A DNA stretch of 64,000 bases. It comes from an uncultured Brevundimonas sp. GTDB lineage: Bacteria; Pseudomonadota; Alphaproteobacteria; Caulobacterales; Caulobacteraceae. Positions 20,478-24,729 of this stretch are shown piece after piece; the first letter of the stretch is position 1; each line of letters opens with the position of its first letter. The stretch spans positions 1-64,000 of the forward strand of contig NZ_CALMZS010000083.1 of NCBI RefSeq assembly GCF_937870815.1. The letters are read 5' to 3'. The position numbers were made by a program, and so were the translations under genes. The notes beneath the pieces were generated by a model that was not told the DNA's origin, did no database searches, and saw only the letters and a list, made by a program, of their open reading frames with translations.

Positions 20478-21362
20478 ATGACCGCCCCCTTGTTCAAGGG
20501 CGTGATCACCGCCCTGATCACACCTCTTCGTGACGGAAAGGTGGACGAAGCCGCCTTCCGGACGCTGCTGGAACGCCAGATCGCGGCCGGGGTTCACGGG
20601 GTGGTGCCGATGGGCACCACGGGCGAGAGCGCCTCCCTGCATCTCGACGAGCACAAGCGGGTCGTGGAGCTGTGCGTCGAGGTCGCCGCCGGCCGCCTGC
20701 GCGTGATCGCCGGCGCGGGCGCCTCGGCCACCGACAAGTCGATCGACCTGGTCCGCCACGCCAAGACGGTCGGCGCGGACGGCGCGCTGGTGGTGACCCC
20801 CTACTACAACCGGCCGTCGCAGGCCGGCATGGCCGCCCATTTCGAGGCCGTCGCCGAGGCCGTCCAGCTGCCGGTTCTGCTCTACAACGTGCCGGGCCGC
20901 ACCGGGGTCGACCTGGCCGACGAGACCGTGGCCCGGCTGGCCTCGCACCCGAACATCGTCGGCATCAAGGACGCCACCGGCGACCTGGCCCGGGTCAGCT
21001 GGATGCGGGCCCACATCATCGACCAGCAGTTCGACCTGATCTCGGGTGACGATTCCAGCTACCTCGGCCATCACGCCCACGGCGGGGTCGGGGTGATCTC
21101 GGTGACCTCCAACGTCGCCCCCGAGGCCATGGTGGCGCTGCACGAGGCCGCCGCACGCGGCGACTACGCCGCGGCCCGGGAGTGGCAGGACCGGCTGATC
21201 GGCCTGCACAGGGCCCTGTTCCTCGACAACTCCCCGTCGCCGGCCAAATACGCCCTGGCCCGGCTGGGCCTGTGCACCGAGGAGGTCCGCCTGCCGCTGG
21301 CCCCGACCGCCGACGCCGTGAAGCCGGCGATCGACCGGGCCATGGCGGAAGCGGGAGTCTAG
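20478..21362 (+). CDS. dapA: 4-hydroxy-tetrahydrodipicolinate synthase
   Basis: First committed step of lysine and meso-diaminopimelate synthesis: condenses pyruvate with aspartate semialdehyde. 294 aa TIM barrel. Landmarks: [34 protein letters not shown] (active-site Tyr and Arg) and the Schiff-base lysine in [13 protein letters not shown]. Normal length. It is followed directly by dispersed repeat copy B. Confidence 0.97.
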
Positions 21363-21440
21363 AAAAAACGGTGTGTCAGAGTCGGCAGAGTCGGCGCCCG
21401 GTCCGCGAAAATTCGGTGTGTCAGAGTCGGCAGAGTCGGC
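21362..21440 (+). repeat. Dispersed repeat, copy B (two units)
   Basis: Two identical 27-nt units (21369-21395 and 21414-21440) carry the core GAGTCGGCAGAGTCGGC, itself a doubled GAGTCGGC. They are 45 bp apart and preceded by GAAAAAACG. The layout (GAAAAAACG, unit, GGCGCC, spacer, AATTCGGTGTG, unit) matches copy A near dnaE, with a spacer 9 nt longer and the opposite orientation. It begins at the dapA stop. Confidence 0.78.
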
Positions 21441-21598: not shown

Positions 21599-22069
21599 AT
21601 GGCCGCCGAGAAACCCAGGACCAAGGTCATCGCCGAGAACCGCCGGGCGAAATTCGACTATTTCCTCGAGGACCATACCGAGGCCGGGATCCAGCTGCTG
21701 GGCACCGAGATCAAGGCGCTGCGCGACGGCCGGGCCAATATCGCCGAATCCTATGCGGCGGTGGAGGGGCGCGAGATCGTGCTGATCAACGCCGACATCC
21801 CGCCCTACAAACAGGCCAACCGCTTCAACCACGAGCCGCGCCGGCCGCGGAAGCTGCTGCTGCACCGCAAGCAGATCGACCGGTTGATCGGCGCCGTCCA
21901 GCGCGACGGCCAGACCATCATCCCGATCCGGCTCTATCTGAACGAGGCGGGCAAGGCCAAGCTGGAGATCGCCCTGGCCAAGGGCAAGAAGCTGCACGAC
22001 AAGCGCGAGGCCACGGCCCAGCGCGACTGGCAGCGCGACAAGGCGCGGCTGATGAAGGAGCGGGGGTAG
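21599..22069 (+). CDS. smpB: SsrA-binding protein SmpB
   Basis: Partner of tmRNA in trans-translation, which rescues stalled ribosomes. 156 aa, intact. Landmarks: [42 protein letters not shown] and the basic tail [20 protein letters not shown]. The start follows GTAGGAGG. The last 41 codons lie in a 126-bp repeat found again at 23639-23764, the sign of integration into this gene with reconstitution of its 3' end. The tmRNA gene is not in the window. Confidence 0.96.
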
Positions 22070-22071
22070 GC
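21946..22071 (+). repeat. Left direct repeat of the smpB islet (attachment-site-like)
   Basis: 126 bp matching 23639-23764 with a single difference (22066 G versus 23759 T), which is silent in the SmpB frame (GGG/GGT). It covers the end of smpB and two bases past the stop. Confidence 0.92.
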
Positions 22072-22148: not shown

Positions 22149-23171
22149 ATGTTCTCGCAACAGCCTAACCGACCATGGGCCTCAGGCATGCTCGGCTTGG
22201 CCATTCTGACTGTCTCCGCTGAACCGACCATCTCCAGACAGGAGCCGCAGACCGCTGTAAGCCCTGATGAAGCCGCCAGGGGTGAAGCCATGGTCGTGCT
22301 TCCCGACGGCCGGAGGCTTCATCTGAAATGCAGTGGGACAGGCGAGCCAACGGTCATCCTGGACGCGGGGCTAGGGCTGGATTCCTCGGTGTGGACGCGA
22401 GTTCAGCCGGAGCTCGCCGAAATAACCCGGACCTGCGCCTATGATCGGGCCGGCTATGGCCAAAGCGATCCAGGACCGCTGCCTCGCGATTCTGCGCACC
22501 GCGCGAGTGATCTGTTGGGAATGCTCGAGGCCACCGTGGAGAATGGACCCTTTGTGCTTGTGGCCCATTCGGCGGCAGAGCTCACAGCGCGCATCGTCAC
22601 TGAACGGCGACCGGACCTCATAGCCGGGTTGATCCTTGTCGACCCGGGCGCCGACCTGGAGAGGTTGAAAACCATCGGACCGGTCTGGGCAGCCGCATAC
22701 GCCGCGGGACAGTCCGCCGCGCTCAAGTGTATTCGGGCCACGGCGGCTGGCGAAATGAGGCCGGGCAACCCCATCTACGTCGAATGCGGCTCTCCGCCCA
22801 CGGACGGTCCTCTGGCAAGCCGCGAGATGGCCGCCGCCGTTCTGTCGGAGAATGAGCCGGATTCGGCAGGGATCGATGAAAGACAGAGAGCCCAAGGCTC
22901 GCTGGGCGACGTATCCCTCATTGTCTTGACGGCGGAGAACAAGTTCGGGGCCAATGAAGGTGCCGCACCGGCCGAAACCCAGCCCTTGCGGCGAGCTTGG
23001 TCAGAGGCTGGTGCGATGATCGCAGCGTCATCGAGTCGAGGTGAACAGCGCATGGTTCCAGAAGCCTCGCATGTGATCCAGTTCGAGCAGCCGCAGGCCG
23101 TGATCGATGCAGTCAGGGACGTGGTGGAGAGGGCTCGCTCCGGGACGGAGAGCGGAGAGTCGACCTCTTGA
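22149..23171 (+). CDS. Alpha/beta hydrolase (islet cargo)
   Basis: 340 aa; substrate unknown. The oxyanion region is VILDAGLGLDSSVW, then CAYDRAGYGQSDPGP, then nucleophile elbow VLVAHSAAE (Ser, though the usual GHSxGG glycines are replaced). The catalytic His is probably in EASHVIQFEQP, and the acid near LTAENKFG. The first 30 residues contain a short hydrophobic run (GMLGLAILTVSAEP) that could export it. Codon use is less GC-biased than in neighbours, so it was probably acquired. Its TGA overlaps the TTG start of the next gene. Confidence 0.8.
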   Translation: MFSQQPNRPWASGMLGLAILTVSAEPTISRQEPQTAVSPDEAARGEAMVVLPDGRRLHLKCSGTGEPTVILDAGLGLDSSVWTRVQPELAEITRTCAYDRAGYGQSDPGPLPRDSAHRASDLLGMLEATVENGPFVLVAHSAAELTARIVTERRPDLIAGLILVDPGADLERLKTIGPVWAAAYAAGQSAALKCIRATAAGEMRPGNPIYVECGSPPTDGPLASREMAAAVLSENEPDSAGIDERQRAQGSLGDVSLIVLTAENKFGANEGAAPAETQPLRRAWSEAGAMIAASSSRGEQRMVPEASHVIQFEQPQAVIDAVRDVVERARSGTESGESTS

Positions 23172-23569
23172 AACGGATTGGCGCGATCTTTCTGACGGGT
23201 ATGGCGGCGGCCTGTTCATCGCAGGCACCCGCGCCGTCGGGCGCAGGCCTCTGCTGGCGAATGTTCGAAGTCGCTGAACAACAGCCCCGGTTCGAGATCA
23301 TCGCCCGCGATGTTCCCAACCTCGAAAGCTGTGCGGCCCAACTGGAGGGTGCGCGAATGATGGAGGGACGCCCGACATCGGGAGCCTACAACGGGCACTT
23401 CATCTTCGCGACCGAGGAACAGATAACCTCGGCCGCAGCGATAGATGGCACCCGAATTCGGGTCTTTGAGGCCGAGGACCGGCGGGAAGTACAGGAGGGG
23501 ATTCGGGCGCTCATCGAGCGCCAATCGTCGGTCGAACGCCCGTCCCGCGAGTTGACCTCGACGCAATAA
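23168..23569 (+). CDS. Small lipoprotein (islet cargo), function unknown
   Basis: 133 aa from TTG, overlapping the hydrolase stop (TTGA). The N-terminus [19 protein letters not shown] has a basic start, a hydrophobic core and a lipobox-like AAAC, so it is likely lipidated. The mature part has one more cysteine pair (GLCW and LESCAAQ) and a mixed alpha/beta pattern. No family is recognised. The coupling to the hydrolase suggests the two act together at the envelope. Confidence 0.65.
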
Positions 23570-23638
23570 GACTCCCGTCGCCGCCCACGTCCACTTGAAA
23601 ACCTCTTCGGACATCGCCGTCTTCGGCAGGCCCGTGTT

Positions 23639-23764
23639 GGCGGGCAAGGCCAAGCTGGAGATCGCCCTGGCCAAGGGCAAGAAGCTGCACGACAAGCGCG
23701 AGGCCACGGCCCAGCGCGACTGGCAGCGCGACAAGGCGCGGCTGATGAAGGAGCGGGGTTAGGC
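23639..23764 (+). pseudogene. Duplicated smpB 3' fragment (right direct repeat)
   Basis: Encodes the last 40 SmpB residues ([20 protein letters not shown] onward) and a TAG stop but has no start, so it is a remnant. It differs from the intact gene end by one silent base. Its stop overlaps the TAA of the convergent gene at 23759-23953 by 4 nt. This suggests that it is the original chromosomal smpB end, left behind when the element supplied a new one. Confidence 0.9.
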
Positions 23765-23953
23765 GACCGGCTGGGCGTCGAGGATGCCCGGCGTCGACGC
23801 CGCGGCCTGCTCCGCGCCCCAGGGCCCGAGCGACGGCGGGGTCCATTGCTGGACGACCATGGCCAGAATCGCGATCAGGGCGGCGATCAGCAGCGCCCAC
23901 ACCGCCGCCCGCCGTTCCTCGCGGGTGAACGCCTCCCGCTGTGCGCTATGCAT
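23759..23953 (-). CDS. Small single-pass membrane protein
   Basis: 64 aa with a strong GGGAGG site before its ATG. A charged N-terminus ([16 protein letters not shown]) is followed by a helix ([17 protein letters not shown], about residues 18-34) and an Ala/Pro-rich tail. N-in orientation is likely from the positive residues. Function unknown. In the pre-islet chromosome it would have been tail-to-tail with smpB. Confidence 0.65.
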
Positions 23954-24084: not shown

Positions 24085-24729
24085 TCACGCTTCGATGATC
24101 GCCCGCGCCCGCCGGAAGACCTCCTCGAACATCGCCGCCGTCAGCCGGCCGGTGTTCGTGTTCAGCCGCGAGCAGTGGTAGCTGTTGAGCAGCACATAGG
24201 GTCCGATCTCGGCCTGGGCCCCGTGGCCCGCCGCCATGGCGCCGGCCGGCCGCCCCAGCGCCTTCAGCACATTGCGGCGCGACACGTCGCCGAGGGTGAG
24301 GATGACCCTGAGCCGGGGCAGGGCGGCCAGGCGCGACCGCAGGAACGGCCGGCAGGCCGCCTCCTCGACCGGCAGGGGCTTGTTGCCGGGCGGGGCGCAA
24401 CGCACCGCATTGGTGATCATGCAGTCGACCAGTTCGAGATCGTCGTCGCCGTTCGGGTCATAGGTCCCGCGCGCGAAACCCGTCTTCAGCAGGGTGTCGT
24501 AGAGCAGCCGGCCGGCGTGGTCGCCGGTGAACGGCCGGCCGGTGCGGTTGGCCCCGGTCCGGCCCGGGGCGAGGCCCGCGACCAGCAGCCGCGCCCGCGG
24601 GTCGCCGAACGAGGGGGCGGCGCCGTTCCACCAGCCGGGGTTCTGGCGGGCGTTCTCGAGCCGGTATTCGACCAGCCGGGGACAGAGCGGGCAGTCGCGC
24701 GGCGCCTCGGGGGGGTAGGGGGGGGTCAT
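24085..24729 (-). CDS. Type-5 (UDGb-like) uracil-DNA glycosylase
   Basis: Removes uracil, and in this family also hypoxanthine and other deaminated bases, from DNA to start base excision repair. 214 aa. Cysteines in CPLCPR plus later ones (DCMITNAVRCAPP) fit a 4Fe-4S cluster. Motif I is GLAPGRTGANRTGRPFTGD, the family 5 form, and motif II lies in NSYHCSRLNTNTGRLT. Only the catalytic-motif reading distinguishes it from family 4. Upstream lies a REP pair. Confidence 0.88.
   Translation of the reverse strand: MTPPYPPEAPRDCPLCPRLVEYRLENARQNPGWWNGAAPSFGDPRARLLVAGLAPGRTGANRTGRPFTGDHAGRLLYDTLLKTGFARGTYDPNGDDDLELVDCMITNAVRCAPPGNKPLPVEEAACRPFLRSRLAALPRLRVILTLGDVSRRNVLKALGRPAGAMAAGHGAQAEIGPYVLLNSYHCSRLNTNTGRLTAAMFEEVFRRARAIIEA

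Follow-up and report, generated by a model that had tools for sequence, protein, structure and literature searches.

Exported esterases of the PF12697 (Abhydrolase_6) type are proteins of ~300-350 aa with an N-terminal hydrophobic segment, DRAGYG and LVDP motifs and a nucleophile elbow of the form GHSxGG. Two known kinds of gene pair are relevant here. The operons of lipase-specific foldases (Lif) consist of the gene of an exported lipase followed by a coupled gene for a membrane-attached partner, and the Tle-Tli pairs of T6SS consist of adjacent hydrolase and lipoprotein genes.

We analyze here a small islet within a window of 64,000 nucleotides, the whole stretch of DNA considered, from a 3.04-Mb draft genome (233 contigs) of the genus Brevundimonas. 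Its only open reading frames encode an alpha/beta hydrolase and a lipoprotein. The gene order is that of a Lif operon, but the lipoprotein has only 133 aa and no match to the Pfam lipase-chaperone models. The adjacency of the genes is shared with the Tle-Tli pairs, from which the islet differs in having no T6SS (judged by the sheath gene, see below), a short generic esterase with its own probable signal peptide, and a lipoprotein of a core family. We compare the islet with the genomes of the genus (131 Brevundimonas genomes, namely the source genome and 130 others). The analysis supports the view that the two genes were acquired horizontally as a translationally coupled unit, which is found in one further genome.

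The Islet and Its Genes

The features of the locus are collected in Table 1. The third-position GC content (GC3) of the hydrolase and lipoprotein genes is 0.69 and 0.72, respectively, compared to 0.91-0.94 in smpB, orf64, UDG, dapA and relA, and the two genes are therefore recent arrivals with foreign codon usage. In comparison with EYE_349, dN/dS is 0.14 for the hydrolase, and the lipoprotein gives 0.20-0.22 when compared with N6CT and EYE_349, so that both are maintained under purifying selection. A preliminary description of this DNA had stated that the two genes are all that the islet carries. This holds for the open reading frames, but the remnant of a second UDG gene is also present.

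Table 1. Features of the islet and its immediate neighbors (positions in the window).
Feature	Position	Strand	Basis and remarks
smpB, intact	21599..22069	+	PF01668 E=9e-58, NCBIfam SmpB; last ~124 nt form the left repeat copy
Left copy of 126-nt direct repeat (smpB 3' end and stop)	21946..22071	+	125/126 identical to 23639-23764
Alpha/beta hydrolase, 340 aa, probable signal peptide	22149..23171	+	PF12697 2e-13, PF00561 1.6e-9; 69% match in EYE_349
Lipoprotein, 133 aa, TTG start, lipobox Cys16	23168..23569	+	Alignment; genus and family searches
Decayed 3' end of a second UDG gene	23582..23638	-	44/57 nt match own UDG tail; BLAST 2e-7
Right copy of smpB 3' end; without start, not a gene	23639..23764	+	Repeat comparison
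orf64, small conserved neighbor	23759..23953	-	45-73% identity in relatives
Uracil-DNA glycosylase (UDG) superfamily gene, right-hand core neighbor	24085..24729	-	PF03167 2.7e-26

The hydrolase scores 51.9 bits against PF12697, where the curated cut-off is 26.3, and it also exceeds the cut-off of PF00561. In an alignment of 16 homologues, the catalytic Ser and His correspond to Ser141 of the AHSAAE elbow and to His308, and Asp165 is a candidate for the catalytic acid. The protein thus shares the fold family and the Ser/His positions of the PF12697 esterases, together with their motifs and hydrophobic segment, while its elbow differs from theirs. AHSAAE is common to the hydrolases of the source genome and Brevundimonas sp. 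EYE_349, whereas the homologues mostly have GHSxGG, with AHSLGG in one genome (G542). Since AHSAAE obeys the small-x-Nu-x-small rule (A-H-S-A-A), the site departs only mildly from the usual form and is not broken; the unusual elbow pointed out in the preliminary description is real. The N-terminus is hydrophobic in both hydrolases, which is consistent with export by the probable signal peptide, and the protein is probably a secreted esterase. Apart from its EYE_349 counterpart, the closest homologues reach only 34-42% identity. Similarity to enol-lactonase and D14/KAI2-type hydrolases is weak (~50 bits against curated cut-offs of 255-430 bits), and a structure model based on two sequences had a pLDDT of 32 and could not be used.

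Coupling and Recurrence of the Pair

The stop codon of the hydrolase gene overlaps the TTG start of the lipoprotein gene by four bases (TTGA, 23168-23171), in keeping with the preliminary description, and a ribosome-binding-like stretch, GGAGAG, lies upstream. Elsewhere in the genus the pair is found once more, in EYE_349, at an unrelated locus. The gene order, the overlap and the TTG start are all kept there, and the overlap and start are therefore not due to chance. Among the 131 genomes, the hydrolase clade is restricted to these two, with the lipoprotein alongside in both.

In EYE_349, the pair is flanked by a thioredoxin-TPR (trx) gene and a prolyl-tRNA editing-like gene. The interval that it occupies varies among relatives, and in one of them (G038) an unrelated 173-aa protein fills the corresponding gap. 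We considered whether the pair belongs to a recombinase element in EYE_349 and rejected this, as the boundary of the 7.8-kb element lies just beyond the pair. The neighbors of the source islet are housekeeping genes. The pair is most likely an ordinary, rare, horizontally moving cassette that passes between species occasionally. Also in EYE_349 (L049:1-2713), a comM/yifB-like gene (ChlI domain) is apparently truncated beside a resolvase, and near it a second 7.8-kb element interrupts a prolyl-tRNA editing-like gene.

The islet-type lipoprotein has a wider distribution than the pair. It was found in five genomes, namely the source, EYE_349, N6CT (G168), G066 and G173, and in the last three it occurs without the hydrolase, so the partnership is not obligatory. 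The lone gene lies beside dnaB in G066, and in G173 between signal-peptidase-like and citrate-synthase-like genes, as read from the translations. On the N6CT contig, which stems from a MAG, it is located after smpB at the same locus as in the source, without the smpB repeat. Here the upstream region of the hydrolase, together with a start similar to the first hydrolase codons, is fused directly and in frame to the lipoprotein, an arrangement that is most simply explained by deletion of the hydrolase.

The Lipoprotein and Its Core Family

The preliminary description assigned the lipoprotein to no known family. No Pfam or NCBIfam family indeed matches it, but it belongs to an uncatalogued core family of the Caulobacteraceae, which a profile of 11 members finds in 247 of 249 genomes of that family. 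Single-sequence matches to the genus-wide copies are mostly between 1e-8 and 1e-16. The canonical copy lies between the gene of a conserved 221-aa protein and ssb at all 20 Brevundimonas loci inspected, and the source genome has its own such copy next to ssb (contig C212). The trio of the 221-aa protein, which is membrane-anchored and has no Pfam match, the core lipoprotein and ssb lies there at L051:5303-6984, and its order is the same at those 20 loci.

The islet copy shares with the core lipoprotein the lipobox cysteine, Cys29 and Cys55, E53, the GAYxGxFIF motif and the length. The identity is however only ~30-40%, and the islet copy has a shorter post-helix loop, no FLRxGG segment and a different C-terminus; it is moreover coupled to the hydrolase and located after smpB instead of next to ssb. 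It is a divergent relative of the core lipoprotein and not its orthologue, nor is it a degraded fragment. The alignment has 14 invariant columns, which include the lipobox cysteine C16 (the box reads AAC in the islet copy and LAAC in EYE_349) as well as C29 and C55, the invariance of which makes a disulphide between the latter two plausible. Structure prediction, as had been proposed, gave a weak model (pLDDT 58), for which a PDB fold search returned nothing below E=0.9; a sequence search of the PDB likewise found no relative. Our literature search on a lipoprotein upstream of ssb found nothing relevant. A family that is near-universal in the Caulobacteraceae may merit a family entry and a study of its function, and we consider the ssb-adjacent lipoproteins a more interesting lead than the pair itself, the novelty of which is low.

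Origin of the Flanking Repeats

The two 126-nt repeats differ at a single position (121). At the right border, the 57-nt decayed UDG 3' end comes first, followed by the smpB tail and then orf64. None of 2000 shuffles reaches the match of the remnant to the UDG tail of the same genome, and the 14 residues read from the remnant compare with the NTGRLTAAMFEEVF of the genome's own UDG. In relatives with an empty gap the order is smpB-orf64-UDG, with orf64 directly after smpB.

The preliminary description had the two genes at an attachment site, which would lie at the 3' end of smpB. Such a site would require an integrase. We searched the source genome for the tyrosine integrase domain (PF00589) and found no match on the contig of the islet, and the second smpB tail is absent from all 130 other genomes of the genus. 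In five relatives the stretch between smpB and UDG is occupied by other inserts or small genes, and none of these relatives has a repeated smpB tail; the same holds for N6CT, with the lipoprotein at this locus. The attachment site was therefore rejected as the main reading. Literature searches on smpB attachment sites gave nothing relevant. As a possible donor, we also considered the matches that span the junction (23612-23650, in six genomes), but these are weak chance matches, mostly to a LOG-family gene. As for the gap itself, the part between smpB and orf64 is a hotspot of small genes: four species (L060, L072, L075 and L079) each have an unrelated one there, and two of the encoded proteins are lipoprotein-like.

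A one-sided, illegitimate joining of an islet-bearing allele to an empty one fits these observations better than an attachment site. In this scenario, one allele would have carried the islet and ended in a UDG tail, and this end would have become attached, with no homology involved, to the smpB tail of an empty allele from the same species; the near-identical repeats and the UDG remnant would thereby be explained in one step. The proposed event resembles homology-facilitated illegitimate recombination, in which linear DNA integrates through homology at one of its ends while its other end is joined illegitimately (PMC3240628). The order of the recombination events is one that we infer, and in a draft of this kind a repeat-related assembly error at 23639-23764 is possible. 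A repeat-flanked islet beside smpB need thus not mark an integrase site, and the comparison of alleles points instead to a one-sided join.

Possible Roles of the Pair

We give about an even chance to the following explanation, in which an accessory exported esterase and a lipoprotein partner form a horizontally acquired operon that spreads without an integrase of its own. The small operon would have come from outside the species. It would encode an exported enzyme of the periplasm, a serine esterase or lipase, and, translated by coupling from the same mRNA, a small lipoprotein, probably of the outer membrane, which would descend from the ssb-adjacent core lipoprotein of the Caulobacteraceae. 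The lipoprotein would most likely be an envelope partner of the esterase, as an anchor, chaperone or local regulator, but could also persist without it, and recombination would carry the cassette into those gaps between conserved genes that tolerate insertions. The periplasmic location, the catalysis and the physical partnership are what we infer here. What counts against this explanation is that the pair occurs in two genomes only and that the lipoprotein is alone in three of five. Its main rival, which we regard as possible but considerably less probable, is that the two genes are independent passengers, the lipoprotein being an extra core-type protein with its own role in the envelope and the hydrolase merely linked to it in two lineages. 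The lone copies in N6CT, G066 and G173 and the ssb-adjacent core copies without any hydrolase agree with this. Two facts argue against it: the 4-nt overlap and the TTG start have been retained in both genomes although the loci are unrelated, and the hydrolase clade is never (in two of two cases) without the lipoprotein. That the hydrolase was acquired to detoxify or break down a specific xenobiotic ester, and is anchored at the surface by the lipoprotein, seems unlikely. The generic esterase family, the patchy distribution and the weak resemblance to enol-lactonase and D14/KAI2-type enzymes would suit such a role, but that resemblance is far below the curated cut-offs, and there are no catabolic neighbors.

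The remaining readings concern conflict and defence. A toxic periplasmic lipase with a lipoprotein as its immunity partner, similar to Tle-Tli, would account for the coupling and the horizontal movement of the two genes, and the N6CT lipoprotein, which survives under selection after the apparent loss of the hydrolase, could then be an orphan immunity gene. However, the T6SS sheath gene VipB is absent from all five genomes with the islet-type lipoprotein (a control detected E. coli VipB), the hydrolase is of a generic esterase family and has its own probable signal peptide, and the core copies of the lipoprotein have no hydrolase or toxin partner beside them; we thus consider this quite improbable. 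A related idea is in our view more doubtful still. In it, the core lipoprotein would repeatedly have been recruited to provide immunity against a lipase that exports itself, or to control this lipase, and the two would make up a compact pair for conflict or competition at the envelope, moving from one gap between housekeeping genes to another with no integrase. Least credible of all, with only a very slight chance, is that the pair acts against phages or excludes superinfection and is carried at an integrase attachment site in the smpB 3' end. Some phages make small envelope lipoproteins that block receptors, and the direct repeats do flank the islet. On the other hand, the repeat is unique in the genus, lacking even in N6CT at the same locus, and no tyrosine integrase was found on the contig. 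PADLOC gave no match for either protein, PHROG phage proteins gave generic esterase matches for the hydrolase and none for the lipoprotein, and searches of plasmids and phages found nothing for the lipoprotein, nor did those of plasmids, at 1e-30, for the hydrolase. With these results and the housekeeping neighbors, the defence module suggested in the preliminary description is not borne out.

One further observation concerns the DNA to the left of smpB. The dapA gene is followed by two tandem copies, spaced by 45 nt, of a ~34-nt sequence ending in TGTGTCAGAGTCGGCAGAGTCGGC (21362-21440). Pieces that match it occur at ~25 other places in the genome, often paired ~35-45 nt apart, and the sequence looks like a dispersed paired repeat.
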